Source: Cephalotus follicularis
Lineage: Eukaryota > Streptophyta > Magnoliopsida > Oxalidales > Cephalotaceae
Direction of reading: 5' to 3'
NCBI GenBank assembly: GCA_001972305.1
Contig: BDDD01002131.1
Coordinates: 24,623-88,622 of the forward strand
DNA: 64,000 nucleotides
In this document: piece by piece, positions 2,149 to 60,805 of the stretch
Layout of the letters: each line of letters begins with the position of its first letter
Position numbering within the stretch: the first letter of the stretch is position 1
The notes under the pieces: generated by a model
The model's database searches: none
What the model was told of the DNA's origin: nothing
The model's input: the letters and a program-made list of their open reading frames with translations, nothing else
Position numbers and translations under genes: made by a program

Positions 2149-2505
2149 TTACCTCACCCTCAACTGGTGATATCCTATCCTCAGATCAAGAATTGAGAAC
2201 ACCCTCGCTCCTTGCAACTGGTCGAACAAATCCTCGATGTGGGGTAAAGGATACTTGTTCTTGATAGTTGCCTTGTTCAGCATCCTGTAATCGATGCAGA
2301 GTCTCATTGACCCATCCTTCTTCTTGACGAACAGTACCGGTGCACCCCATGAAGAAAAACTGGGTCTTACGAAACCTTTGTCAATCAGGTCTTGTAACTG
2401 TAGCTTCAGCTCTCGCAACTCAGCCGGAGCCATCCGATAGGGTGATATTCGAAACCAAACAGGTGATTCCAAGTGGCTAAAATGGCCATCTGAAGTAAAC
2501 ATCAC
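2149..2505 (-). pseudogene. Ty3/gypsy reverse transcriptase N-terminal fragment
   Basis: This short frame of element Z carries the conserved start of a gypsy [11 protein letters not shown], then [20 protein letters not shown], then [19 protein letters not shown] and [15 protein letters not shown]. These are RT fingers and palm motifs, and the D of the SILDLR block is the first catalytic aspartate. It lies just upstream of the 202-2094 piece on the same strand. Residues before about PYR do not look like pol; there the sequence passes into LTR-derived block 2447-3622. This is a fossil part of a broken element. Confidence 0.85.
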
Positions 2506-2530
2506 AGTTCAATGATTCCCCATAAAAGCA

Positions 2531-2564
2531 GTCGACGTCTTCTACAAAGACGTCGATGTCTTTT
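2531..2564. repeat. GACGTCGAYGYC module pair
   Basis: GTCGACGTCTT is followed 5 bases later by AAAGACGTCGATGTCTTTT, a near-perfect dyad. The same pair recurs at 6696-6730 in the other copy of this LTR block. Confidence 0.8.
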
Positions 2565-3304
2565 ACAACACAGGACGGGGTTTTTACGGTTTTAACACGC
2601 CAGGCAATTATCAAACCCATTCCCACACGCAAATTCATGTAATCCTACATGCAAGATCAATTTAGTGGATCATAGTGACACTACAACAAGTCCAGAATCT
2701 CAATCCAATCATTAACATGCAATCCACCATGTTATACATTAACTTAGAACTTAAAAAGCACATATAAATCCATCACTTCCCCCTACCTTTGATTTCAAGT
2801 TAGAAATCGAAAGTCCACCTCTTTTAGTACTCCTAGAAGTCACTTGAGTCCACAGGTATGGCTTGGAAGCTTCCCGGTTCGTCCTGGCAGTTGGTGTGCA
2901 AACTCCAAGCTCCCTTGCTCAACAATGGCACATACACCCACTGGTTCCCCTTTTCTCTTTCTTCTGGTGTTATAGAACGAGAGAGAGAGGTGGGGAGGGT
3001 TGGTATTAAGCAGATTCCTCCTACCTAACGCACTTCTTCTGTCATCTAACAACCACACCCGAGATCTCTCCCACTTTCTCTCTTTCTGCATATTCTTTTC
3101 ATATTCTATTCTTCCTTTGCAGATTGCATGTTAGGATGGCATAAATCCTTGCATGTTACATGTGAGGACATGTTCTGGGCATTCCTGGAAATACACAGAC
3201 ATGCTTAACACGTCGAATCGCACTTGAAAAGGCGTTAGGTAAGCCCCTAAACAAATCCCCCTTGCATGTTGTTCTGCCGACGAAGAACGTGCTGGCCATT
3301 CATA

Positions 3305-3465
3305 CAAAGGCGTCGACGTCTTCCCTTAGACGTCGATGTCTTTTCCAGTTTGGCAAGAAGGTGTCGATGCTTTCTCCCAAAGTCGACGTGCATGTCCCTT
3401 CCTTCACGTGTGCCCTGGCTCCCAAAGGAGTCGACGTCTTTCCAAAAGACGTCGATGTCATTTTC
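3305..3465. repeat. GACGTCGAYGYC module cluster
   Basis: About six copies of the AAAGRCGTCGAYGTCTTT-type dyad or its half lie within 160 bp. They are spaced about 18-35 bp apart. The matching cluster in the other LTR copy is 7468-7630. Short open frames here, rich in DVDV or TSTS, are by-products of this repeat. Confidence 0.8.
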
Positions 3466-3581
3466 CCAGAACGTTGCCGTTTCAACTTTGACATACACAT
3501 CCCAATTCCAAGACCATAAATAGGGTTTTAAGCATACTTTGAGTTCAAAACTCAACATTCTCATTAAACCAAGTTTAAGAA

Positions 3582-4022
3582 TTACATCATAAATCGAAAT
3601 ATTACATTTAGGAAAATGCCGGACGCGGAAGTCGACTCTGGAACCTCAGTCTGAGCAAGTACAAAGACTCTACCTTTTGCGATGCCCTTGCCAGTATCTC
3701 TCCTCTGTGATGGTCCTGCAGCCGCACCACTGCTGCTCCCTGGCCCAGTAGGTACTGTAGCTGAACCCTTTGGGCAGTCTCTCACTGAATGGCCAGATGC
3801 TCCACACCTCAAACATAGCCCATTCATCCTCCAGCAATCCTTCTGCAAGTGGCCCTTCCGACCGCAGTGATAACAGGCTCCGGTTCCCGCATTACTCCCC
3901 TGACTAGGAGTCCTCAGCGTGTCTGTCTGCCCAATTCTGTTCCTTGATGACTTACTCGGAGAACCACTACCCTGCCACTTGGAAGAAGCTAGTCTTGTTG
4001 GGTTCTGTTTAGTCTGTTGCAC
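3582..4022 (-). pseudogene. Gag C-terminal segment with two CCHC zinc knuckles
   Basis: The frame encodes CYHCGRKGHLQKDC and CLRCGASGHSVRDC, two CX2CX4HX4C zinc knuckles that bind RNA in gag nucleocapsid. A basic, Ser/Gly/Pro-rich linker follows, then GRVFVLAQTE, the usual lead-in to the protease of Tekay-type elements. After SASG the sequence enters LTR-derived block 2447-3622. It lies immediately downstream of the main gag segment on the minus strand. It is a fossil part of element Z. What is seen is the zinc-knuckle wording; the function is from the gag family. Confidence 0.85.
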
Positions 4023-4037
4023 CCGATCCCTTTCTGC

Positions 4038-4799
4038 TCAGTCCTCAACAGATATGCTCTCTAGCAGCCTCGCCTTCTGTGCGACCTCTGAAAAGGTACC
4101 CAGCTCCATAGCCCTGATCCTCGACCGAAGGTCCGGTCGCAAACCCTTCAAAAACCTCCTTATCTTTTTCACATCATCAGCTACCAGATATGGTGAATGT
4201 CTGGATAGCTCCATAAACCTGGTCTGGTATTCGGCCACAGACATCTCCCCTTGCCGTAACTCCAGAAGTTCACTCTCCCTCCGTTCCTGCTCCATCCGAG
4301 GTACATAGGAATCGAGGAACTCTGTCTGGAACCTCTCCCATGTAGCGTCAAGTCCAACTGACTCCCATTTTTCTTTGACCATCTCCCACCAGTGAGTGGC
4401 CTCTCCCCATAAACGGTACACGGCAAATTTCAGCTTCTGGGTATCGGTACAGTCCATCACTGTGAAAATCTTCTCCAAGTCTTGAAGCCATCTCTCAGCA
4501 ATCGTGGCATCAAGTTCTCCCCGGAAACTAGGTGGATTCTGTCTCATGAATCTCTCGATATCCCTCCCGAATTGGCTACCATCTTCTCCCGGGCAATAAT
4601 CAGGAGCTCTGTGTTGCGGTCGAGCTTGCGCGTGGTACTGGCGCATCTCCTCCGCATTGGCCATATTAAAGGCCATCTGTTGCTGGAAGTAGTCGGCAAT
4701 CCGGGTCATCGGGTCTCTAGTATCTTGAGGCACATTCATTCCTTCAGGGGCATTGGCTCTGGCGGCCCTAGCCCTACCACGCGTTCTCCTTCGATCCAT
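4038..4799 (-). CDS. gag: Ty3/gypsy gag (capsid part)
   Basis: This 253-residue frame starts with a basic Arg/Ala-rich head (MDRRRTRGRARAARAN) about 100 bases after the primer site, as expected for a gag start. The middle holds the retrotransposon gag fold: FRGELDATIAERWLQDLEKIF, then LWGEATHWWEMVKEKW, then WERFQTEFLDSYVP, SVAEYQTRFMELSRH and IRRFLKGLRPDLRSRI. Gag forms the virus-like particle in which the element RNA is copied. The capsid and zinc-knuckle parts are both recognisable on the minus strand. It is a fossil: the element that carries it is broken. Confidence 0.88.
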   Translation of the reverse strand: MDRRRTRGRARAARANAPEGMNVPQDTRDPMTRIADYFQQQMAFNMANAEEMRQYHAQARPQHRAPDYCPGEDGSQFGRDIERFMRQNPPSFRGELDATIAERWLQDLEKIFTVMDCTDTQKLKFAVYRLWGEATHWWEMVKEKWESVGLDATWERFQTEFLDSYVPRMEQERRESELLELRQGEMSVAEYQTRFMELSRHSPYLVADDVKKIRRFLKGLRPDLRSRIRAMELGTFSEVAQKARLLESISVED

Positions 4800-4896
4800 T
4801 TGTTCCTATAAGAAGGACGATGGTTAGTCACGACTTTTAGGGAAACAATTCATTGATTGCCAAGGAAAATATCCTAGCTAAGCATATATGGAATAT

Positions 4897-4908: not shown

Positions 4909-5629
4909 CTTCTGTCACACCCCGTCTTTCCACAACATAAAAGTGGTAAAGCAATCAACATATAAATCCAGCTTATGCAATATACCATAAATTTAAACTT
5001 TCTGTATCCAATAATCACTTGCGGAAGCATTTCAAATATAAGCCAAAATAAAACACATCACGCATCCCATACTACGTGATGCTAAAAAATCCACATAACT
5101 GTTGACCGCCCAAAACGGAGCGTGAAATAATACATCAGTACAAGATAACAACGTAAACCATGTTACAAATAATCCCCAAATACATAACATGAAGAATGAT
5201 CAACAACATAAATATAAAAGAGAATATCCAAGCCTTTTCTTTAAAACTCCGTGCATGCTCCAACATGTCCACTCCATCAATCTGTTACAGTAGGGGTTAG
5301 CCTTTGTCCTCACTCGGCTAAGCGAATGAATCCATAAAGTACAGTTCAGGTAACAAGGCAATGAGTATCATGAATGAATGCATAATGATGAGCCATGTCA
5401 TGTAATTTTCATAGTAAAAACACCTCCGTATACACATATAAAAATATATGCATGCTCACAGTACGAGTATAACTCATAAGTTATATCAACAACAAGCAGT
5501 GAATATGTTCACAAAAGGGAACCAGACAGTCCAGTCGTCATGACCGTCGCCACCTCCTGGCCCCAACGCCATGTACTCTTGCTCCATCCCCGTTTGCGAA
5601 CGGTTTTGGGGCAAGTCCTCCGTAAGTTG

Positions 5630-5760
5630 TTTAGCACGACGGCTAAACCAACAGCAAGTTACTAGCACAGTGGCTATGTAATCAACAGGTTATTAAAACG
5701 ATGGCTAATAATCAACAGGTTATTAGCACGACAGCTAATAATCAACAGGCACAAGCATTT
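5630..5760. repeat. About 27-bp minisatellite in LTR Z
   Basis: About five imperfect units on the pattern CAGGTTATTAGCACGRCGGC-TAATAAT. The same array, reverse-complemented, is at 46538-46660 in the other Z-type LTR. The array is therefore an old part of the family. Confidence 0.75.
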
Positions 5761-5869
5761 CACAGTAAAAGTCGAGCAATTACACCAAATCACTTGATCA
5801 AATATATTTGGTCAAAATATATTAATTCGTTCACAAGTTGTAAGAAGTTATAAATCTTAAAACAATGCA

Positions 5870-6180
5870 TTTCTCTGTCTTTGGAAATACTTCCCCAGTC
5901 GTTTCGAAAATATATATAAATTCTTGAGTCGACAAATATACATTTTCGCACAAAACATTTGGTTTCATAATCAATCCTTTAAAAAATTCTCAGTCATTGG
6001 AATTACTTCCCCAGTTATTTCGAAAGTATATAAATTATACATTTTCACAAATTATATTTGGTTTCATAATCAAACCCTCAAAACAGTTCTCCGTTATTGG
6101 AAATACTTCCCCAAACATTTCGAAAATATATAATTTCATATGTTGACAAATATACTTTTTTGTACCCAAATGATCATAAT
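5870..6180. repeat. Three tandem units of about 115 bp in LTR Z
   Basis: Each unit contains TTGGAAATACTTCCCCA, then CGAAAATATATAAAT, then ACAAATATACATTTT and GGTTTCATAATCAA. Two matching units occur in the opposite orientation at about 46200-46420. Confidence 0.75.
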
Positions 6181-6344
6181 AATCAAGCAAGCTTTTCAAA
6201 ATGATTTAACACTTTTAGCAAGCAACCATAATGCAAATCACAGTAACAATGCAATCATATGCTCAGAATACATCTAGGTTCGTTTCTAGAGTCGTTTCGG
6301 GTCTAACGGTTCTCATTCGTGCGAAATTCTACTGTCCAGGAGGA

Positions 6345-6472
6345 AAGACGTCGATGTCATTTCCAAAGGCGTCGATGTCTTTTAGCCTAAAGCGCCAGTT
6401 CTATGCACAAATGTTCCTAGGCCTTTCTGGACCAAAGACGTCGATGTCTTTTACAAAGACGTCGATGCCTTT
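6345..6472. repeat. GACGTCGAYGYC module cluster
   Basis: Four copies lie in two pairs: AAAGACGTCGATGTCATTT with AAAGGCGTCGATGTCTTTT, then AAAGACGTCGATGTCTTTT with AAAGACGTCGATGCCTTTT. Within each pair the copies are about 20-25 bp apart. Confidence 0.82.
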
Positions 6473-7875
6473 TTCATACCAGGGAGTGCCAGTTCGTGAG
6501 CCTCGGTTCTAGAGGGTAAAATCCAACCTTTTAATCCATCATATAAACGAATCTTACTCCATAGACGTATAGGGTATGCTACTGGTTAATAGATATACAA
6601 CCATAACATCAATTCGAAACCAAACAGGTGATTCCAAGTGGCTAAAATGGCCATCTGAAGTAAACATCACAGTTCAATGATTCCCCAAAAAAGCAGTCGA
6701 CGTCTTCTACAAAGACGTCGATGTCTTTTACAACACAGGACGGGGTTTTTACGGTTTTAACACGCCAGGCAATTATCAAACCCATTCCCACACGAAAATT
6801 CATGTAATCCTACATGCAAGATCAATTTAGTGGATCACAGTGACACTACAACAAGTCCAGAATCTCAATCCAATCATTAAAATGCAATCCACCATGTTAT
6901 ACATTAACTTAGAACTTAAAAAGCACATATAAATCCATCACCTCCCCCTAACTTTGATTTCAAGTTAGAAATCAAAAGTCCACCTCTTTTAGTACTCCTA
7001 GAAGTCACTTGAGTCCACAGGTACGGCTTGGAAGCTTCCTGGTTCGTCCTGGCAGTTGGTGTGCAAACTCCAAGCTCCCTTGCTCAACAATGGCCCACAC
7101 ACTCACTGGTTCCCCTTTTCTCTTTCTTCTGGTGTTATAAAACGAGAGAGAGAGGTGGGGAGGGTTGGTATTAAGCAGATTCCTCCTACCTAACGCACTT
7201 CTTCTGTCATCTAACAACCACACCCGAGATCTCTCCCACTTTCTCTCTTTCTGCATATTCCTTTCATATTCTATTCTTCCTTTGCAGATTGCATGTTAGG
7301 ATGGCATAAATCCTTGCATGTTACATGTGAGGACATGTTCTGGGCATTCCTGACAATACACAGACATGCTTAACACGTCGAATCGCACTTGAAAAGGCGT
7401 TAGGTAAGCCCCTAAACAAATCCCCCTTGCATGTTGTTCTGCCGACGAAGAATGTGCTGGCCATTCATACAAAGGCGCCGACGTCTTCCCTTAAACGTCG
7501 ATGTCTTTTCCAGTTTGGTAAGAAGGTGTCGATGCTTTCTCCCAAAGTCGACGTGCATGTCCCTTCCTTCACGTGTGCCCTGGCTCCCAAAGGAGTCGAC
7601 GTCTTTCCAAAAGACGTCGATGTCATTTTCCAAGAACGTTGCCGTTTCAACTTTGACATACACATCCCAATTCCAAGACCATAAATAGGGTTTTAAGCAT
7701 ACTTTGAGTTCAAAACTCAACATTCTCATTAAACCAAGTTTAAGAATTACATCATAAATCGAAATATTACATTTAGGAAAATGTCGGGCGGTACACTGTG
7801 CCACAGAGGGTGCTGCTACAACGTGTAGAGACCAAGTGCAGGGTACGCCATCATCCTCTGCATGCGCCATGACTA

Positions 7876-23030: not shown

Positions 23031-25528
23031 TGTTGGAAATTGGGAAAGCAGCGGAAGAAAAACATTCAGGACACTAAGGCTACGGGTGCTCAAATTTAAA
23101 ATTTATGTTCCGGTGAAGGAACCACCCATGACCATTGCACGCAAATGCCCAAATTTCATCCTAGGATCTCTAATTGGACATTAAATGAAGCCTTGGTAGG
23201 TTTCTAAGCATGCAAGATTCGGATTTTGATAGGGTACTCTAACCCTATGAAATTGTCACATTCCAAAATCAATCAAGGTGCATATAAACCTTAATTGATT
23301 CACCATAGTATCCAAACCTTAAAACCATACCCTAATGGTTTTAAAACTCATTTAACCTGAATTTAAAACACATATATAAAACCTAGAAAACCAGGACAAT
23401 GACTTGGCAAAGCCATTGCATCCAACCCACACACCACAAAGTAAGTAGAATAAAGGAGAAGTAAGAATTACATACAAAAGGTCTTTAACTCCTTCACTCC
23501 AAATTTGGTGTATCCTTCAAGATGGTTTCCAAGATTTCTTCCTTCACAAAATCTCCTTCCTTAGTGATGTCTTGAAGCTTTAATGAAGGCAAAGTGGCTG
23601 CCTTAAAGTTCCTAAAACTAGTTCACACCAGGTAAAGATTATTTGACAATCTCCACCTAATATAATTTATGGAGGGTAAAGAGGTAAGTAATTTTGCTTC
23701 TTTCTCTTTGAGCTATGGAACTCTAAATCTCCATGAATTGAAGCTTAAAGAAAGGTGACAATGGAGATGAGAAAGAGGAGAGTGAGATTCGGCCAAAAGA
23801 GGGAAGAAGAAAAATAGAGAGAACAAGACTTGCCCAATAAGACAAAGTAACTTATCTTATCTTATCTTGTAATTACTTGCTCTCCAAGTAACTTATAAAT
23901 ATCTCATTATCACATTCATTTTAACCAATAGGAAGCTAGGAACATGCACACACATTTCTCTTCTTTCTTCCTTCACATGGCCGGCCATATGGATGATTTA
24001 AGGCCTAGTTAATTAACCCAAGTGCAAATTAGAAGTTGACATACATAACTAGTCAACAAACTAACTAGTTATCATCCAATTAACATGTAACTTTCTAGTC
24101 ACATATTAACCATCATTTTGGCACCAATTTGGGCCGGCCCATCAAAATGCCACCCTAGGCTATGGTTAGACCAAAATGGTCTCTCTCTCCATGAATTACG
24201 CAATAATTCATAAATGATAAAATTACCCCTTAGCCCGGAACATACTATTTATGGTGCAGCTCAAACTTACTTCATTAGAAATGATAAAGTCCAGCAAAAT
24301 AAATATTCCTAGGCCAAGTAACATCTCTCTAGATTCCATCCTCTCACTAAATGATATGTGTCCCTTCACATATCATCTGATTCCAAAAATCAGGCAGGAC
24401 CCGAAAGACAGGTTGGATTCCGGTACAATGATATATTTCCCAGAACATCCCATGGTTCTGATACGACCACCCCAATAGCCATTCGACTATCTTGATGGCC
24501 CCGGTGTGATTTCCAATCACCCCCGGATCCGTGAAAAATAGTACCACATCTATCATACGTTAGCCAGATAACCTGTACTCTCCTCACAGTCATCAGTGTA
24601 TTTGTCATGTAACCCTCGTCATCCTTGGCTCCCACCGCGGACTAGGGTTTGGATTAATGTCACCCCAGGTAATACCGCGATAGCTATAATATTTATGAAT
24701 GCACTGAGACTATCGACAGACATCCTAGGAACCTCTTATTCCAGTCTGCCTTCACCTGGCCAGGATTTAAGTCTCAACGGACATAAATTCTGTAGAGCTA
24801 GTCACCCCTCAGTACGGGTGTGACGATCCCATATTGCGCATTCGCACATACATCTCAATGCAGCTTCCACAAGGGCCAGAGACAACCCTTTTGCCAGCAC
24901 GTGGCTAGTGCTGGGGAAGGTGGAAACCAAAGCCAAGCAGTTACTACACAATGAATGCCAGCCGCTCAGGTCTAAGGATACAACTTAAATCACGTATGAT
25001 CTACTAGTCGCCTTGGACTATACACTACCGAGACTATAGGAATCCTATTGACAAAGGTACGAGCATTCCAAATAGGCGTCCTATGGTGGGTCGGTTCAGT
25101 GTCATGCCTCCGCGCATGCACCCCGCATCATCTTTAGGGTAAACCCAAATGGTAATGAGATGATCCATCCTCCCCAACATCGGGAGCAAACATAACACGA
25201 CAAGTCTGTACGGTTCATCAATTGCCCCAAGAGAGTTAACCTATGACTTGGAACGTTTTGTCAGAAGGGAGTAAGGATTTCATTCTCATAGCCTCCCTAG
25301 ACATGATATCCAACCCTTTTGTCGACAGGGCGTTATATGTGTATTCAATTAACATGGTGATTAATTGATCCAGTATTATGGTTTGGGATAATACATATAA
25401 CAAAAATGCCACTTAAAATAAAAATTCCACTTAAAACATTAATGGAATTAAGAATGTTTACATAAAGAGTGTCTATACATTTGCGTACAGCCACCACTCG
25501 TGGCATGCAGGGACACCCATATCTAACA
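23031..25528 (-). repeat. 3' LTR of copia A
   Basis: 2498 bp, the downstream LTR for this minus-strand element. It is followed by the polypurine tract at 25529-25539. Confidence 0.93.
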
Positions 25529-44112: not shown

Positions 44113-44730
44113 AATGATAAAATTTGTGTTAATGACATGCAATATTTTTCTATGTGATTGAACCAATGACAGCCTTTAACCAATCAACCTTTTGAGAGTA
44201 TCAAGGTGTGACAGGATAGGTTGTACCTTGGCTAAATCACTAGTTTGCTGTGTTAATCAAAGACAGTCTTTAACCAATCAACCTTTTGAGAGTATCAAGG
44301 TTTGACAGGATAGATTGTACCTAGGTTAATTTGGTAAATTTCTGCACTAAACTGAAACATGTGCCATGAATTTGAATATATATATACATGCGGGGATTCT
44401 CACATCTACGGGATTGCTGTTTCATATTTTTCTTATTTATTTATTTTGTTAGTTTACATTAGCTATTTAATTTGAATTGTTTATTTTTTTATTATTAAAT
44501 TAGTGTAATCCAAATCAATTCTCTCTTTTCAATTTATTTATTTGCATTTCTAGCTTAGATTAAATTAATTTAATATTTGTTATTTTTGTTTAGTGTCATC
44601 CTAGGTTTATTTTTATAGCATTTCCTTTCAGCTCTTCGTGGGAACGATCCCTACTTCCACTTGCTAAATTGTTAGATTAGGGTAATTTTGATTCGGCCTA
44701 ACGACACCCATCACCTATGGGGATTGAGGT
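44113..44730. other. Unassigned interval with a 94-bp tandem pair
   Basis: A unit of about 94 bp, containing CTTTAACCAATCAACCTTTT and GAGAGTATCAAGG, occurs twice (from about 44168 and 44262). The AT-rich remainder includes GTGGGAACGATCCCTACTTC followed by CACTTGCTA, a phrase common near the ends of some plant gypsy LTRs (Athila-like). The source is uncertain. No gene is seen. Confidence 0.5.
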
Positions 44731-44751
44731 ACACGTGAATGCATGGGCATG

Positions 44752-44840
44752 CACGTCGACATTGAGAGAAGGCATCGACACCTTCTTACGAAAAAGGAAA
44801 AGACATCGACGTCAAATGAAAGACATCGATGCCTTTGTAA
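44752..44840. repeat. GACGTCGAYGYC module cluster (ATCGAC form)
   Basis: CACGTCGACATT, GGCATCGACACC, AAAGACATCGACGTC and AAAGACATCGATGCCTTT lie within 90 bp. Confidence 0.8.
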
Positions 44841-45591
44841 AGAATGTATGTCATGTTTTTCACTGACAGAGTAACATGCAGTGGGGGATCTTTGGGGGCT
44901 TTACAGACGCTTTAACATGTGCATTGCAATGTGTTGGTCATGCTGGCGTGTTGCCAGGAATGCCCAAAACATGCCCCTCACATGGAACATGCAAGGAACA
45001 TACCATCCTCACATGCAACCTGCATAAGAAAGAAAGAAAGAAGACAAAAGGGAAAATGCAGAATCTGGGAAAAGGGGAGTGAGCACGAGAGTGCCCCTTA
45101 AATGCAAGGAGAAGAATGTTAGGGGGGAGCAACCTGCATAAGAACAACCCTCCCCACTTCTCTCTCTTGTTTTAAAACACCAAAGGAAAGAGAGGAAAGA
45201 AAATAGTGAGTGTGAGAGCCACCATTGTTGAGTTTGCTTGGAGCTAGAGATTAGAGCTTGTGGGTAGCAGTTGCTGAGGGAACCTTGGAGTTGCTGGTGG
45301 CCAGAACTTGGGAACTCAAAGGGGTGGACTTTCCAGTTCCTAACTTGGAACAATAAGGTAGGGGAAAGTGATGGATTTATACATGCATTTTGGGTTTTAA
45401 GTTAATGAATAACATGATGAATAGCATGTTAATGGTTGAATTGTGATTCTGGACTTATTGCGGTGTTACTGTGATACACTGAGTTAATCATGCATGTACG
45501 ATTACATGAATATGTTAATTCATTGTGTTAAGGATGGATTTGATAAATGGCTTGGTGTGTTAATACTGTGGAAAAAGACATTCTGGGTTGT

Positions 45592-45682
45592 GAAGACATC
45601 GACGTCTATGTAATGACGTCGATGCCTTCGTGTGGAAACATGAAAGACATCGATGTCTTTTGATAGACATCGACGCCTTTTC
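45592..45682. repeat. GACGTCGAYGYC module cluster
   Basis: GACATCGACGTC, GACGTCGATGCC, AAAGACATCGATGTCTTTT and GACATCGACGCCTTTT. Confidence 0.82.
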
Positions 45683-45896
45683 TGGGGAAATTGTAGAACT
45701 GTAATGTTCATTTCAGATGGCCATTTAGCCACTTGGGATCACCTGTTTGGTTTCGATATGATGTTCTGGTTATATTCCTGTTAACCAGTAGCATGCCTTA
45801 CACGTTGTGAGAGTGAGATTCGTTTACATGAGGAATTAAAAGGTTGGATTCTACCCTCCAGAATCAAGACTCGCGAACTGATACTCTCTGGTATCA

Positions 45897-46047
45897 TAAA
45901 GACATCGACGTCTTTGTAAAGACATCGACGTCTTTGTTTAAAAAACGCCTGGGAATATTTGTACATGGGATTGATGCCTTATTATAAAGACGTCGACGCC
46001 TCAAGGATAGACGTCGACGCCTCAAGGATAGACATCGACGCCTTTTC
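45897..46047. repeat. GACGTCGAYGYC module cluster
   Basis: AAAGACATCGACGTCTTT occurs twice, then AAAGACGTCGACGCC and two RGATAGACRTCGACGCC units. This is the densest cluster in the window. Confidence 0.85.
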
Positions 46048-46537
46048 TCCTGATCAGTAGGATTTCACCGGAATGGGACCCGCTAGATCCAAAACGACTC
46101 TAGGAACGAACCTAGACGCATTCTGAGCATATGTTGCATTTTACTGTGAATTGCACTATGGTTGCTTTCTAAAAGTGTTAACCATTTTGAAAAGTCTGTA
46201 TGATTATAATAATCATTGTGTACGAAAATGTATATTTGTCAATTTATGAATTTATATATTTTTGAAATGATTGGGGAAGTATTTCTAATGACGGAGAAAT
46301 GTTTTAAAGGATTGATTATAAAACCAAATGTATTATGCGAAAATGTATATTTGCCAATATATGAATGTATATATTTTTGAAATGATTGGGGAAGTATTTC
46401 CAATGACAAAGAAATGTATTGTTGTAATTTTTATAACTTATTACAACTTATGAACGGAATAATATATTTTAAACAAATATATTTGATCAAGTAATTATAT
46501 TTTATTGCTTGACTTGTGCTGTGCAATGCTTGTGCCT

Positions 46538-46660
46538 GTTGATTATTAGCCGCCGTGCTAATAACTTGTTGATTATTAGCCACCGTGCTAATAACTTGTT
46601 GATTACTTAGCCGCTGTGCTAGTAACTTGCTGTTGGTTTAGCCGCCGTGCTAAACAACTT
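46538..46660. repeat. About 27-bp minisatellite in the inverted LTR Z
   Basis: TTGATTATTAGCCGCCGTGC plus TAATAAC, about four to five units. It corresponds to 5630-5760. Confidence 0.85.
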
Positions 46661-47353
46661 ACGGAGGACTTGCTCCAAAACCGTTCGCAAACGGGGATGG
46701 AGTAAGAGTGCATGACGTTGGGGCCAGGAGGTGGCGACGATCATGACGATTGGATTGTCTGGTTCCTTTTTGGGAACATATTTACTGCTTGAGTTGATAT
46801 AACTTATGAGTTATACTTGCACTGTGAGCATGCATATAGTTTTATATGTACATACGGAGATATACTTACTGTGAAAATTACATGTCATGGCTCATCATTA
46901 TGCATTCATTCATGATACTCATTTTCATATGACTCGAACTGTATTTATGGGTTTATTCACTTAGCCGAGTGAGGACAAAGGCTAACCCCTACTGTAACAG
47001 AGTGACGGAGTGGATGTGATATGGAGCATGCATGGAGACTTAAAGAGAAGGCTTGTTATCTCTCTTAATTATGTATTTGGGTTATTGAACATTGATCATG
47101 TTATTTGGATTTTGTAACAAAGGATATTTTGTTATCTCGTACTGTATTATTTCACGCTCCGTTTTTGGGCGATCGACAGTTATGTTGGGTTTATTTATAA
47201 ACTTGTGGGCATCACGTAGTATGGGATGCGTGATGCGTGTTTAAATTCGGCTCATTTACGTTATTGCTTCCGCTATTGGTATTTTTGCATGAGCTGGATT
47301 ATTTTATGTCGATTGCCTTACCACTTTTATGTTGGGGAAACGGGGGCGTGACA

Positions 47354-48385
47354 GCCTATGGCTTTTATGTGATTAGGACCAGCCCAGTATACCACTGCTT
47401 AGGGACAGTTGGTATATTGACGCCGTCCGTAATTGTCATTTGTGCACACGACATACCATACATACATATTATACCATTGCACGCATATCACCATTATGTT
47501 GATGCACTACACGACATACATTGATATACTGTTGCACACATACACTATTATACTGTTGCATGCATAGCATAGTATACCTACACGACATTATGTCGCTGAC
47601 CCATTTCCCCTGTGTGCGGAATGGGTCAGGCTCAGGCACAGGTGATGGATTGCAGTGAGGTAAGCTGAGAAGGACAGGTTCTCTATAACAGATTTTGTTA
47701 GCCAATTGTATATGGAGTTACTGATATGAATTGTATTAAATGAGACAAGTTGAGATGGATGGATTCTTTATAGCATATTTTGATTTGCCCTATTGTACAC
47801 GGTCTTACTTATGGTAAAGGATATGAGTTTGTTTATATGAGTTGTAAAAAGGGCCTCGAGTTATAAATGAACAGTACTGATATGTTAGACTTGTTATGTA
47901 TAAGAGACAGATCTAAAGATATATTAGAGATGTTTTATTTCAGCAATCGACCTGCCGACATGTGTCAGTGCTTATGATATGTGTATTGATGTATTAAACA
48001 GGGACAAGCCCATCATTTGAGGCATTAGAATGATCTGATACTGGTTTAGTTGTGATTGCTGAGGGTTGAGCCCGTATATATAAATAAACTGCTGATTCCT
48101 CCTTCGTGAGTGTTGAGATATAAAATGTGTTTTCCTTTACAGGGGGTTTAGTCCTATAAACGAATACTTCATGCCGAAATTTCGGGAGATTTTAAGAGTT
48201 AGTTTTTATTTGGATTGATTTATTCCGCTAATGTATATATGACTCTTCCGCTTATATGGCTTTGATTTAAAGTTTTAAATTTATAGCACTTTTGGAGTAT
48301 GAATTATATGATATAAATGGATTGAAGGAAATGAATATCACGCATCGGATCGTGGGGGTTTACCCTTGCGGTTCGGGGCGCGACA
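47354..48385 (+). repeat. Gypsy LTR X-type, 3' part
   Basis: It ends TGCGGTTCGGGGCGCGACA at 48385, after which copia B sequence resumes. It matches the reverse complement of the start of solo LTR X (CCGCTTAGGGACGG near 59570). It contains the CTGACCC/GGGTCAG hairpin at 47596-47629. Confidence 0.8.
47596..47629. promoter_or_regulatory. CTGACCC/GGGTCAG stem-loop
   Basis: CTGACCCATTTCC pairs with GGAATGGGTCAG, allowing one bulge, around a short loop. It is the best-paired copy besides 63845-63876. Confidence 0.78.
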
Positions 48386-48916
48386 TTGATCATGTTGAAG
48401 TTGATGATATACTGAGAGTAGGAAGCAGGAAGCGATAGAATGATAACATTCGTGCTCAACTTTGTATCTTGGATGAAACCCAAAGATGCAAGTTGCTCAT
48501 GCAACTGATCATTTTCAGACAATGATCGTTGACATATATTCCTTCTATCATCTTCGAGTAGAATAGCTCTTTGGAGAGCTGATACCGAGCAGTCCTGCTT
48601 CTTTCACAGTACAACTGTTGTAGATGAAGCAAGATAGCTCTTGAGTCAGTCATGTGCTCATGCTAACGTTGAATGTCAAAGATCATTACTGCTATAATGC
48701 ATCATTTAACAATCTCATTCTCATCCTTCCATGTCAGAAAGGCTGTTTTCTCCTCATCACTAGCATCCTCATCAACTCTTGTGGGGATGCTAGCCTCAAG
48801 TACATAGCCTCTCTTCTCAAGAGTGAGTATTTATTGCAGGTTATGTAGTCAGTCCAAAAAATTTGGACCGGTCAATTTGTTGGTATCCAATATACTAGAG
48901 AGTGGGTTTGGTGCCA
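48386..48916 (-). pseudogene. Element B gag remains
   Basis: On the minus strand an ATG at 48916 opens MAPNPLSSILDTNKLTGPNF, the copia gag start. Further pieces read SRAILLHLQQLYCERSRTAR, then KMIEGIYVNDHCLKMI and VIILSLPASYSQYIINFNM, parallel to copia A gag. The rest of gag, protease and integrase are not seen before LTR sequence begins at 48385. It is a fossil and broken. Confidence 0.82.
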
Positions 48917-49713
48917 TTGCATTATCTTTATATATAAGAGAAAAGGAAAGACAATTAGTATGTTTGTTCAAATTATGTTCTGAAAACTTTAAAGATTAGG
49001 TCTTAAATATTTAAGTATATCCTCCCGCTATTTTGCGTGAATTCCTTAACCTTCTAGTAAGGAAGACGAAAAATATGATCTTATCATATGTTCCTTTACT
49101 AGTAGGGATCAGAGTCCCATAAACATGCTTAGTACACCTTGGGTGAGCCCATCAAGTGTAATGTCCCTTTATGGTTAGGTAAACTCTTTGTCAATATCAT
49201 CTCATGATATTCCAAATATATGTTTTGTCTATAGGTGCATAAGACCTTGGGTGAGCCACACAAGTAACTATGCCAACTATTTAAGTTAACCCATCATAAA
49301 ACAAAGTGGTAGACTAAAGATAAAACTCCTTGGGTGAGCCCAACCGGATCCGATCGATAATCCATCACAATGCACATCTCATACATAAGGAATCCTAAGA
49401 ACCCTCTCATAGCCTAATGCAAACCCCCGGGTGAGGCATCTAGTCTACACCTGACAACAATGTCTTAGACTTCTTGAAATGATGGAAGGCAATGGCTGGA
49501 TACTTGCTTGTGTCCATATTGTTATGAATTGATCTTGATTTGAGGGATATTAAAGGTCTTTAAGAATAGCCATCCAATTTATTAGTCCAATTGACAGATA
49601 GATGGCATAATATGGAGAGATCGTTGGAATCTCTATCATGACACATTTACACTAAGCATGCATCTCATACATCTTATCCTAATGGTAAAATCATGGACTT
49701 TTAAACCAATGGT
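48917..49713 (-). other. Element B leader, gag-side part
   Basis: It matches the copia A leader (for example the CTTGCTTCCTAGTGGGGATC region of 29730-29760 against 49060-49110). No gene is seen. It is interrupted by solo LTR D. Confidence 0.65.
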
Positions 49714-49718
49714 CTTAT
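49714..49718. repeat. Target site duplication CTTAT of solo LTR D (left copy)
   Basis: CTTAT recurs at 55859-55863 directly after the LTR end. Confidence 0.9.
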
Positions 49719-51055
49719 TGTTAGGTTAGGGGTATCCTTGTATGCCACGATATGGCTCGTTGATTGTATATATACACTACTAATTTGTACAATTCTGAAT
49801 TCCATTCATATTTCATGTGCATATTTATTTATTGGCAAGGCTATGTGGCTTATCCCAACCAACCAAAAGGAAAAGAATAATTATTCGTAATTAACTGTAT
49901 GTCATATATCACCCCGTCATATCAAAAGGGTTAGATCTCGTGCCAAGGAGGCTATGAGGATGAGATCCTTACTCCCTGTGACAAATGTTCCAAGTCATAG
50001 GTTCACTTTCTTTGGGCCATTGATGAATCGCAAAGACTTGTCACATTATGCTTGCTCTCGGGTTAGCAGTAGAGGATGGTTATCTTGTAGCCATTTGAGT
50101 TATCCCTAAAGCTAAATGTGAGGTGTATGCTAGAGAGCGTGACATTGAACTGACCTACCAATAGGAAACCTATTTGGATAGTCAATACCAGATGTTAATA
50201 GGATTCCTATTGTCTCGGTAGTGTATATTCTGTGGTGACTAGTAGGTCTATAGCCTGCATTGTCTCCTTTGACCTGAGCGGCTGGCATGCATTATGTGGT
50301 GACTACTTGACTTTGATTTTTGCCTTCCCCAGCACTAGCCACGTGCTGACAAAAGTGTTGTCTTTGGGTCCTGTGGGAGCTGCATTGAGATGTATGGGCG
50401 AGTGTGCAATAGGGGATCGTCAAACCCGGGCTGAGGGTGACCGGCTCTATTTATCTATGTACGTTGTAGACTTCAGTCCTGATCACGCATAGGTGGACTA
50501 GGGATGAGAGGTTCCCGTGGGAGGTCTACCGATAGTCTCAGTGTCATCCTATATTCATAGTTATCGTAGCAATACTAGGGGTGACATTCATCCAAACCCT
50601 ATGCTTTGATCAGAGCCAAGTATTACGATGGAAACATGACACAAATGCCGATGACAGGATAAAGAGACTGGCTATTCCGACCATGATAGATAGACATGGT
50701 AATACACGGATTTGGGGGGTGATTGACACTCACATCAAGGCTATTTTGATGGTCGGTGACTATTAGAATGGTCGTACCAGAAATCAGGATGTTCTGGGAA
50801 TTTATCATCATACAGGAGAATGATAGGCTTTCGGGTCCTGCCTAACTTTGAACAGGTTGATATGTGGTGGGACACGTGTCATTTAGTGAAAGGACAATAT
50901 CAGGGAAGATGTTGCTTTGATAGTGAGTATTTCATTTGCTGGATTTAGGTCTATGCAATGCCACGATGAAGTATTCCATGTAGAGGGTTATGAAAATTGA
51001 AGAGATTGTCTCATGAAGAGCATGTGTTGACATCGTGTACAGCTAGAGCCTCTAG

Positions 51056-51345
51056 ACGTCGACGCCATGAAGAGCGTGCATCGACACCTTCTAAACTAGG
51101 GGCTTACGCGTCGATGCCATGGAGAGCATGCATTGACGCCGTGTGTAGCTGAAGTCACTGGTCGTTAACGCCATGAAGAGCATGCGTTGATGCCATGGTT
51201 GTCATAAAAAACCAGTGACTTACGTGTTGACACTATTTTGTTTTTACATCGACGCTTATAAGGAATGAGACAATGCACCTGTTTCATCTTATCGTTGGCG
51301 TTGACGCATAGATAAGATGAGACGCATGGCGTTGATGCCATGACA
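51056..51345. repeat. GTCGACGCC / GTTGATGCC module cluster in copia LTR D
   Basis: About a dozen RYGTYGAYGCC copies: GACGTCGACGCCATGAAGAG, GCGTCGATGCCATGGAGAG, GCGTTGATGCCATGG and others, often followed by ATGAAGAGCATGC. They closely resemble the modules of gypsy LTR Z. Confidence 0.8.
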
Positions 51346-51456
51346 GGCTGATGCGCGGCATCTCACCAAACTTAAGAGAAGTTGGTGAATTTTGGGAAGT
51401 GTGTTCAAGAAGCTAGAGAGTTGACTTGGACACTTTAGGAGAGAGAAGTCAAAAAC

Positions 51457-51467
51457 TATAAATAGTT
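51457..51467 (+). promoter_or_regulatory. Possible TATA box of LTR D
   Basis: AACTATAAATAG, about 30 bp before a region that runs into a (CT)n tract. Confidence 0.5.
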
Positions 51468-51504
51468 ATAAGACAAGAGGTCAAAGCTCACTGAACACAC
51501 TAGA

Positions 51505-51508
<4 letters not shown>

Positions 51509-51558
<50 letters not shown>
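51509..51558. repeat. (CT)n microsatellite
   Basis: About 50 bp of uninterrupted CT. On the minus strand it gives an Arg-Glu repeat that is not a gene. Confidence 0.97.
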
Positions 51559-51561
<3 letters not shown>

Positions 51562-51596
51562 TTGTGCTGGTAGCGTACACGTTGGCGCCATATGCC

Positions 51597-51612
51597 TAGG
51601 CGTCGACGCCTA
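51597..51612. repeat. Perfect 16-bp palindrome TAGGCGTCGACGCCTA
   Basis: This is the most symmetrical copy of the GTCGAC module, lying just after the CT tract in LTR D. Confidence 0.9.
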
Positions 51613-51942
51613 AATCGCCTAGTTCGATTTGCACCCATTTTTAACCCTCATTTCACCCCTCAAAGTTCATGATAGGTGGAGATAACTTGTACACTGCATC
51701 TTATCTTTACGTAGAGTGATTTGGTGTAGGATAAACACTTGGCTTGCATCCTTGCTTCTTCCTTATCCGTGGCTTAAGAAGGAGCTTTGGAGTTCTTGGA
51801 TTCAAAGGGTTGAGGGAGCTTGACTTGAAGGAAGGAATCTTCACCTTGGTAAGAATCTCTTCTCTTCTTGTTCTTGTGGCCGTAGCAGCGGGTTGTAGCT
51901 TAGGTTAGAGAAACCTAGCCGAACCCCCTTGCCCCTTTGGTG

Positions 51943-51947
51943 GTTTC
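51943..51947. repeat. Target site duplication GTTTC of solo LTR W (left copy)
   Basis: GTTTC recurs at 55523-55527. Confidence 0.92.
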
Positions 51948-52261
51948 TGTAACAACCGAGGTTTTCGCAAAATGTAAGATTACGATTTTAATGTAATCTT
52001 ATTATGGAATTATTAAGAATAGTGAAATTCTTGAAATTGATGATGTTTTCCATTTTATGGGGTTGAGTTTTGAAAGAGGAATGATAAGGAAATGTTCTAA
52101 GGCATTTCGCATTTAAAGTCGCAATTATGATGCTCGAAACGGCTAATAAAGTCTATTTTAATGCGCGACAGTAAGGCCCTATGTTCGCATTATTATTACG
52201 ATTATTTTGGTTGTCGTTTGGATTATTTTAGTCGCAAATTGCGGAATAATCGGGACCCAGG

Positions 52262-52383: not shown

Positions 52384-53060
52384 ATCTGGGAGATGGCGAG
52401 AGAGAGTGGGAGAGAGACCGGCAGAGAGGACGCCGGAGGCAACCGCGTGACCGGGGGAAGACGGTGGACCACCCAGGCGCACCGGCCGAAAGTAGCTCTT
52501 CCTTTCCTCTTTTCTTTTTCTTCTTTTTCTTCCCCGTTGGCGTCACTGTTCGCGCCTCCTCCCGGCGTTTCCCGGCGCCGTTTGCGTCGCGGGTGGGGTG
52601 GGTTTTGATGTTGAAGGTCCCCTCTACCCATTTCGACCACTGGTGTGGCGTGATTCGGCCGGAAACGGCCGGAATCAATGGGCTGAGTCGACTCAGCGAG
52701 TCGACTCATGGCCGCCTAAGACCGCGCGTTTGGCGCAGAGTCTTGGCGAGTCAAGGGCAGGGATGTGTTGACCAGGTAATTGTGAGGCGTTTTTGGGTGT
52801 TGATCGGACCTGTCGAGGTCCGGCGAGTTGACTCAGTGAGTCACGACTCGCTGCCGGCCGTGGCGCGACGTTCGGCGCCGATTCCCGGCGGGTTCTGAGC
52901 GGTTCTGTGTCCGCCGTTCAATGTGGAACCCGTTGATATGTGTTTCGCAACCTGGTTGTGTCGGTCGAAATCCGGCCGGCGTGTCGACGACGGCAATGTT
53001 GGTTTCCGTGCGTCGATCGTAATGTAAATATTTTGTGTATGCAGTGAGCGAGTTGGTAAT

Positions 53061-53795
53061 TTGGTTCGACTATGAAGGGAAGTGATGGTCGATAATTGGC
53101 AACAACTCGAAATGTTCGGAAGTGAAACCGCGGCTCAACCGTACTATTGCTATGGTTAATAGGTGAGTTGTATGATATGTTTAGGAGCATTTCGCATGCA
53201 TTTTTGTAATTGATAAATGCTACGCAAGTGTAATTTGGACTGAATCGTATATATTGTTGTGTTGGTTTTTAATGTTGGGATTAGTTCTGTTGAGTATTGG
53301 CTAGGATGAATCATGGGAGAGAAGGAGATTAAAACGAGGTAAGGATTCTTCAGTTTTTCCTAAAAAGTATTTTATGTTGTAAGGACTCCTATTCTCTTTC
53401 TAAAAGTATTTTACGTTGTAAGGATCTTAAATCGCTTCCCAAAATTACTTATGTTGATAAGGATTTCTACTCAGTTTCTAAAAGTACTAAGTGTTCTGTT
53501 TTACTTTCAATGATTATTTTTATATGAGAAACGAGTTTTCAATACGTTATGCATAGCTGATTTCTGAATGCATTTGAGTTAACCACTCAAATGAAGAAAA
53601 ATGTTTTATGAAGAGAAATGTTTTATGAATGCATTTGAGTTAACTACTCAAATGAAGAGAAAAGTTTATGAATGTTATGAAATGATTTTTATGATTGCTT
53701 TGAGCTGATCACTCAAAGTAAATGAATGAATGAACCACCTTGGATTGCGATCTTCCAAGGGAATGGAGCGAAGGCTCAATATGAATGGAGCGAAA
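53061..53795. repeat. 735-bp tandem duplication, copy 1
   Basis: It runs from TTGGTTCGACTATGAAGGGA to GAATGGAGCGAAA. Compared by eye with copy 2 it shows about three differences. No gene is seen. Confidence 0.95.
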
Positions 53796-54530
53796 TTGGT
53801 TCGACTATGAAGGGAAGTGATGGTCGATAATTGGCAACAACTCGAAATGTTCGGAAGTGAAACCGCGGCTCAACCGTACTATTGCTATGGTTAATAGGTG
53901 AGTTGTATGATATGTTTAGGAGCATTTCGCATGCATTTTTGTAATTGATAAATGCTACGCAAGTGTATTTTGGACTGAATCGTATATATTGTTGTGTTGG
54001 TTTTTAATGTTGGGATTAGTTCTGTTGAGTATTGGCTAGGATGAATCATGGGAGAGAAGGAGATTAAAACGAGGTAAGGATTCTTCAATTTTTCCTAAAA
54101 AGTATTTTATGTTGTAAGGACTCCTATTCTCTTTCTAAAAGTATTTTACGTTGTAAGGATCTTAAATCGCTTCCCAAAAGTACTTATGTTGATAAGGATT
54201 TCTACTCAGTTTCTAAAAGTACTAAGTGTTCTGTTTTACTTTCAATGATTATTTTTATATGAGAAACGAGTTTTCAATACGTTATGCATAGCTGATTTCT
54301 GAATGCATTTGAGTTAACCACTCAAATGAAGAAAAATGTTTTATGAAGAGAAATGTTTTATGAATGCATTTGAGTTAACTACTCAAATGAAGAGAAAAGT
54401 TTATGAATGTTATGAAATGATTTTTATGATTGCTTTGAGCTGATCACTCAAAGTAAATGAATGAATGAACCACCTTGGATTGCGATCTTCCAAGGGAATG
54501 GAGCGAAGGCTCAATATGAATGGAGCGAAA
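53796..54530. repeat. 735-bp tandem duplication, copy 2
   Basis: It directly abuts copy 1 with no spacer and ends at GAATGGAGCGAAA. The sequence that follows (GATCAATGTT) is the original continuation. Confidence 0.95.
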
Positions 54531-60604: not shown

Positions 60605-60805
60605 TGTACAAAAACAGGGCAAAGCGCCTACCCTTTCATGCAAACCGTCAATGGTTTACGCCTGGCAAAGCGCCGATGCTTTGACAAAAGCATCGCAGCT
60701 TTGCGCATATCAGCTAAAGCGTTGATAGAATATCGAAGTGTCGACAGTTTGGGATCCAATTAAAGAGTCGCCTATTGCGCCAAAGCGCAGACGCTTTGAC
60801 ACGAG
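60605..60805. repeat. AAAGCG / GATGCTTTG dyad cluster
   Basis: CAAAGCGCCGATGCTTTGAC, AAAAGCATCGCAGCTTTG and CAAAGCGCAGACGCTTTGAC are short near-palindromes with the same look as the GACGTCGAYGYC modules but a different core. Confidence 0.7.

Follow-up and report, generated by a model that had tools for sequence, protein, structure and literature searches.

The long terminal repeats (LTRs) of retrotransposons in the plant Cephalotus follicularis carry arrays of a CpG-rich near-palindrome of about 18 bp (the module), in which a nearly free spacer of 1–4 bp separates neighbouring modules. Ty3/gypsy and Ty1/copia families share this module, and their LTRs are otherwise without similarity. The analysis started from a window of 64,000 nucleotides (positions 24,623 to 88,622 of the forward strand of contig BDDD01002131.1, assembly GCA_001972305.1), for which an initial annotation had described such near-palindromes in the LTRs of two families, Z (gypsy) and D (copia). 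The reading that we favour, with moderate confidence and on the evidence of the sequence, is that a sequence-specific DNA-binding protein, dimeric and probably supplied by the host, would bind to the arrayed modules, which would act as an LTR enhancer.

The excess of the module over chance genome-wide is enormous. In the 1.577-Gb assembly, in which the window is one part of one contig, the 18-mer AAAGACRTCGAYGYCTTT matches at 66,681 forward and 66,647 reverse positions, against 268 and 308 for a reversed-order control, none for a version with the core TCGA changed to TGCA, and about 0.25 per strand expected from base composition. The 12-bp core alone gives 164,372 genome matches (849 in reversed order; 388 expected by composition), the D flavour RGCGTYGACGCY gives 71,986 (112 in reversed order), and a third flavour, CAGTCGACTG, is likewise abundant. 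In a sample of 20 stretches of 10 kb, picked by contig number with their content ignored, RACRTCGAYGYY occurs 53 times in nine stretches, 50 of these occurrences falling in the six stretches that have at least seven, and three core controls occur 0, 0 and 1 times. When sample and window are taken together, GTCGAC is the top over-represented palindromic hexamer (107 vs 22.3 expected) and GACGTC reaches 65 vs 22.3; the module itself holds GACGTC, and many modules read GACATC. GACGTC corresponds to the C-box of bZIP proteins, a resemblance in sequence by which the modules are putative bZIP enhancer sites. The window alone contains 69 RTCGAY-type and 22 GACRTCGAYGYC-type sites. The claim of a CpG-rich near-palindromic module, often paired, that the LTRs of both gypsy and copia elements contain far more often than by chance is thus borne out, also by the genome-wide count that had been proposed as its check.

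The module is a symmetric site with clear edges. When sites are selected on nothing but the 6-bp core and a neighbour at 18–23 bp, the pooled profile of four groups (102 sites) has high information from -9 to +9, reading AAAGACATC to the left and GACGTCTTT to the right of the centre, and falls below 0.1 bit at ±10 to ±12, with a slight rise farther out where the next module starts. Since information is high over ±9 and near nil just beyond, the site is about 18 bp long and the spacer nearly free; the half-site is about AAAGACRTC. The Z sites alone (47) show these edges well. Family D has the motif GCGTYGACGC, which carries most information within about ±5 bp and differs from the 18-bp module of Z, and the sites of locus L006 (24) have other flanks, CCAGTCGACTGCC. 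At least three flavours with a TCGA core can therefore be told apart: the one within RACRTCGAYGYY, GCGTYGACGC and CAGTCGACTG. The last of these is found in both LTRs of an LTR retroelement at L006:3376-8082, with three further modules inside; its 1.0-kb LTRs are 98.1% identical, and in its short interior three scanned frames have only weak hits to PF20167, a putative plant transposon protein.

Pairs of modules keep a fixed spacing. Genome-wide, where spacings of 18 bp and above were counted, 27,279 pairs of the 12-bp core have their centres 18–22 bp apart, against 125 at 24–28 bp, 2,672 at 29–33 bp and 450 at 34–38 bp, and among 100 listed pairs of this last class nearly all are two steps of 19. 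In the sample, the only core spacings below 18 bp are 13 bp (three cases) and 15 bp (one), and paired modules lie 19–22 bp apart, so that the pairing described initially stands and the distance of 20–25 bp given for it does not. For CAGTCGACTG, 48,681 pairs were counted over 12–40 bp, and 57 of the 69 listed forward pairs, all from contig C1, are at 19–22 bp. As pairs of both the 12-bp core and CAGTCGACTG are mostly about 18–22 bp apart, the short spacing is common to both flavours.

The same 18-bp module is present in copia-assigned loci (L009 and L015) and in gypsy-assigned loci (L011 and L019), and two gypsy groups and one copia group of the sample share it. The assignment of Z, L011 and L019 to Ty3/gypsy is based on their gag, reverse transcriptase (RT) or protease domains. 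Between-family matches span 27–47 bp, i.e., about two modules and a short spacer, and when modules ±10 bp are masked no BLAST match at E 1e-4 is left among copia1, gypsy L019 and Z; the sharing is thus confined to the module. Between D and Z there is no BLAST match even unmasked, and since the D motif also differs, D holds a second flavour. The proposal of one module in gypsy and copia LTRs therefore holds between L009 or L015 and L011 or L019, but not between Z and D, which contain two related but different flavours; nor is the D cluster explained by an inserted piece of LTR Z.

The features of the window that bear on these observations are the following (coordinates of the window).

44718..47353, + strand: solo LTR of gypsy family Z, TGGGG...TGACA, with flanks ACCTA and GCCTA (4 of 5 bases, a possible target-site duplication)
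44752..44835, + strand: module group 1 of this solo LTR, four RTCGAY cores
45590..45682, + strand: module group 2, two pairs about 20 bp apart, holding an exact 18-bp palindrome at 45643-45660
45895..46047, + strand: module group 3, one pair 20 bp apart and three tandem 21-bp units
4913..7790, - strand: LTR of a gypsy Z element with modules at 6345-6472, 6696-6730 and 7468-7630; 7790 is the end of the repeat alignment only
near 4895: TGGTATCAGAGC-type primer binding site adjoining the LTR at 4913..7790
4041-4805, - strand: gag beside the LTR at 4913..7790
2447..3625, - strand: partial duplicate of LTR Z, 1.18 kb long, matching 6612-7790 at 98% identity; its modules lie at 2531-2564 and 3305-3465
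49717..51966, + strand: copia D LTR, right end approximate; 49717-50946 aligns to the copia A LTR and the module part does not
51020..51345, + strand: D-flavour array, GCGTYGACGC, with several pairs 22 bp apart
51456..51464, + strand: TATA box CTATAAATA, 125 bp past the first base of the last D array core
51597..51612, strand not assigned: exact 16-bp palindrome TAGGCGTCGACGCCTA, downstream of the D TATA box
60605..60805, strand not assigned: AAAGC...GCTTT dyads with another core in solo LTR X (weak case)

All dyads that the initial annotation had located are present, and its 16-bp palindrome downstream of the D array is exact, but the orientation it gave for the Z copy at 44752-46047 has to be reversed: the LTR at 44718-47353 is sense on the + strand, and it is the copies at 2.4–7.8 kb that are inverted. 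Twelve modules are found in the initial 1.4 kb of the Z solo LTR and 11 in D. In two stretches selected since they had already been named, the 12-bp core occurs 11 times in Z (44718-46100; maximum 0 in 300 dinucleotide shuffles) and the RYGTYGAYGC core seven times in D (51020-51640; shuffle maximum 1). The D LTR is 73% identical to the copia A LTR over 1.27 kb, and the copia A LTRs lack the cluster, as had been stated: the two are 2502 bp long each and contain 2 and 3 dispersed TCGA. In solo LTR X the case for similar dyads is weak: 60605-60805 contains five AAAGC (shuffle mean 1.0, maximum 4) and no Z core. Another exact 16-bp palindrome, GCTGAGTCGACTCAGC, lies outside the Z and D arrays at 52682-52697, with a further RTCGAY site 13 bp on, and the LTR Z piece at 2447-3625 sits between a gypsy gag and pol, as a nested or rearranged insertion.

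In two copia families a TATA box is located just downstream of the array. Of 21 D rows, the window copy included, 18 have the box CTATAAATA intact or with a single substitution, and at locus L009, which has more than 15 modules, the array ends 106 bp ahead of the TATA box CTATATAAAGG, with a zinc-knuckle frame downstream on the same strand. An array ending 106–125 bp before the TATA box is enhancer geometry. In the model that we propose, each near-palindrome would take one dimer, neighbouring near-palindromes would seat two dimers next to each other at a distance of about two helical turns, and rows of these pairs ahead of the LTR promoter would function as an enhancer and possibly also protect against silencing. 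A host transcription factor is the probable reader, given that the site is common to gypsy and copia elements that are unrelated and that the scanned frames showed no element protein shared between them. Part of the gain of sites in a family may be due to short tandem duplications (about 21 bp); the spacers would then diverge, and the 18-bp site would be kept in the active lineage. That arrays can change by units of about 21 bp is seen in 33 Z rows (the window copy and 32 of 39 other listed copies, all close relatives), of which three, i.e., the window copy and two others, have two CTCAAGGAT-type units, 27 have one and three have none. More tentatively, a single host system, a family of dimeric readers whose sites come in three or more flavours with a TCGA centre and in pairs at 19–22 bp, might have been adopted independently by unrelated Ty3/gypsy and Ty1/copia families; it would have seeded about a quarter million perfect sites and left the retrotransposon load co-regulated or co-protected.

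Several observations weigh against the enhancer-site model. The genome matches are not independent events, because large families dominate the counts. The smaller groups give noisier profiles, with 0.45 bit at +10 in copia1 (30 sites) and 0.79 bit at -10 in L019 (11 sites), and L020 (14 sites) is noisy too. When copies of one family are aligned, modules are hardly more conserved than their neighbours: column identity outside CpG is 0.964 vs 0.956 in Z (p 0.22) and 0.927 vs 0.917 in D (p 0.20). Changes that mostly post-date insertion would give this result. Between Z subfamilies module identity is higher (0.86–0.89 vs 0.76–0.83), a gap that is biased because the modules were picked for a motif match in one of the two sequences. 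The remaining 12 of the 69 listed CAGTCGACTG pairs from contig C1 are at 27–28 bp, and helical phasing past the first step is doubtful, periods of 10.75 and 8.5 scoring alike over 72 gaps, which makes a strict helical rule for longer gaps doubtful as well. Other TATA-like strings occur on both strands of the L009 stretch, and the position of the arrays relative to the promoter is unclear in gypsy Z and L019. At ±6 to ±9 the two arms of a site pair in 243 of 352 cells, against 221.0 (standard deviation 5.2) when arms are shuffled within groups, which a hairpin would also give. Finally, no candidate DNA-binding protein appeared in the 20 of 37 open frames (at least 150 codons) that were scanned with Pfam, six of them without a hit; the hits were to gag, zinc-knuckle, protease, RT, RNase H and integrase domains, besides the weak PF20167 hits in L006. 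With this coverage the scan is no proof that an element-encoded reader is absent.

Such an element-encoded reader is the basis of an alternative that we consider unlikely, namely an anti-silencing system like VANC of the Arabidopsis VANDAL elements, in which the protein of one element would bind dense motifs and keep the DNA unmethylated, other families having evolved the motif to share this protection. The VANC targets described in the sections of PMC5735166 drawn on here do resemble the modules in their dense short motifs outside coding sequence, their tandem-repeat dynamics and their distinct flavours; the same sections place VANC21 motifs in one orientation and give a motif, YAGTATTAY, that is not palindromic. 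CpG dinucleotides are better kept inside than outside modules in Z (0.93 vs 0.82, 16 sites each, p 7e-4), but in D there is no such protection (0.63 vs 0.61, p 0.77), so that CpG decay, as a proxy for methylation, gives a mixed picture for the suggestion that modules are methylation targets. The frame scan, as far as it went, provided no candidate for the protein either.

A live but weaker rival to protein sites, and one that we also regard as improbable, is a function of the modules as RNA hairpins, kept for folding as a small-RNA source or as an RNA dimer or packaging signal. PMC10760457, in the part used here, describes maize Sireviruses as having an excess of small RNAs at their palindrome clusters, and the arrays analysed here fold better than shuffles (z from -2.0 to -5.8 in seven array stretches; -1.1 in one control stretch). 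However, the pairing above the arm-shuffled level is limited to the outer arms: positions ±3 to ±5 do not covary (142 pairs vs 147.9 expected), and the common combination of A at -3 with C at +3, present in 27 of 88 sites, breaks the pair beside the centre. In the outer arms, only 12 of 33 doubly changed cells pair, and sites in which one arm or both are poorly formed may account for much of the excess, the 72 well-formed sites giving 222 pairs vs 214.2 (p 0.02). Adjacent modules pair no better than shuffled partners (13.74 vs 13.73, p 0.53; Watson-Crick pairs only, 12.68 vs 12.52, p 0.14) and resemble each other no more than these do, in a test of 53 pairs chosen for at least 12 of 18 matching positions, a selection that lowers its power. 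We read the outer-arm association as a tendency of the two half-sites of a protein dimer to persist or disappear jointly, leaving some room for a hairpin role. The small-RNA hairpin suggested by the initial annotation thus keeps the folding and part of the covariation and is not favoured.

A neutral minisatellite, i.e., a unit of about 20 bp that expands by slippage and drifts, is quite improbable. It would explain the variable number of CTCAAGGAT units among Z rows and the runs with a 19-bp period, but drift in a tandem repeat should leave spacer and core about equally well kept, and the pooled spacer carries almost no information; the sharp module edges contradict it, as does the occurrence of the same 18 bp in gypsy and copia LTRs without other match. 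Very improbable is the unselected movement of 20–40-bp pieces between families by template switching or gene conversion, with which the length of the between-family matches agrees but which would be expected to carry flanks too; after masking no match at E 1e-4 is left.

Other repeats were recorded beside the LTR arrays. Window positions 53058-54530 are a 735-bp tandem duplication with 99.5% identity, L014:1-10000 consists wholly of a tandem satellite of about 163 bp, possibly a centromere repeat, and L025:8159-9159 is a 111-bp tandem array with units that are 100% identical.

Repeated cis-regulatory sequences in LTRs have precedents. Tnt1-type copia LTRs contain tandem activator boxes in U3, which, like the modules, are repeated, partly symmetric and upstream of the LTR promoter, but which are described, in the accounts consulted, as arrays of two or three repeats. 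The closest parallel is the repeated motif of Sirevirus LTRs, presented in the portions of the study used here as a high-copy, dyad-symmetric and CpG-rich sequence of 10–20 bp, clustered upstream of the TATA box and near-identical in LTRs of very low other homology (Bousios et al., 2010; PMC2829016). At least eight copies of a palindromic motif per element are likewise found in Z (12), D (11) and L009 (more than 15), and the array precedes the TATA box in copia D (125 bp) and L009 (106 bp), its position in gypsy Z and L019 being unclear. The usual Sirevirus core is CGG-CCG, in 12 of the 13 motifs listed, and, among the Ty1/copia elements compared there, the motif is said to be specific to Sireviruses; a TCGA centre is listed for two motifs, CGGTCGACCG of Vitis and ACAATCGATTGT of Tnd-1 (PMC2829016). 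In contrast, the core here is TCGA without the CGG-CCG signature, and the hosts Z, L011 and L019 are Ty3/gypsy; gypsy elements do not figure in those portions of the Sirevirus comparison (PMC2829016).

VANC targets, in the same sections of PMC5735166, share with the modules a dense short motif in non-coding transposable-element sequence that is multiplied by tandem repeats and differs between related families; tandem-repeat dynamics of a dense motif are indeed found here. They differ in that YAGTATTAY is not palindromic, occurs in DNA transposons and is read by an element-encoded protein. The maize palindrome CACCGGACNNNGTCCGGTG is similar in that one palindrome occurs in two transposable-element superfamilies of one genome, but it concerns structured regions of copia elements and Helitrons, and the focus of that work, in the part used, is on secondary structure and small RNAs (PMC10760457). 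Among the papers listed in searches on LTR palindromes and shared motifs, none reports, by title and opening of the abstract, such a site shared between gypsy and copia, and the sole match to the motif strings was in a melanopsin study. Importantly, gypsy and copia families of one plant have the same 18-bp site and a short spacing rule without other LTR similarity, and if a single reader is indeed involved, activation or silencing escape of much of the retrotransposon load would hang on one protein family. In all, palindromic LTR arrays themselves are known from Sireviruses, and the new part is the Ty3/gypsy carriers and the sharing across superfamilies.

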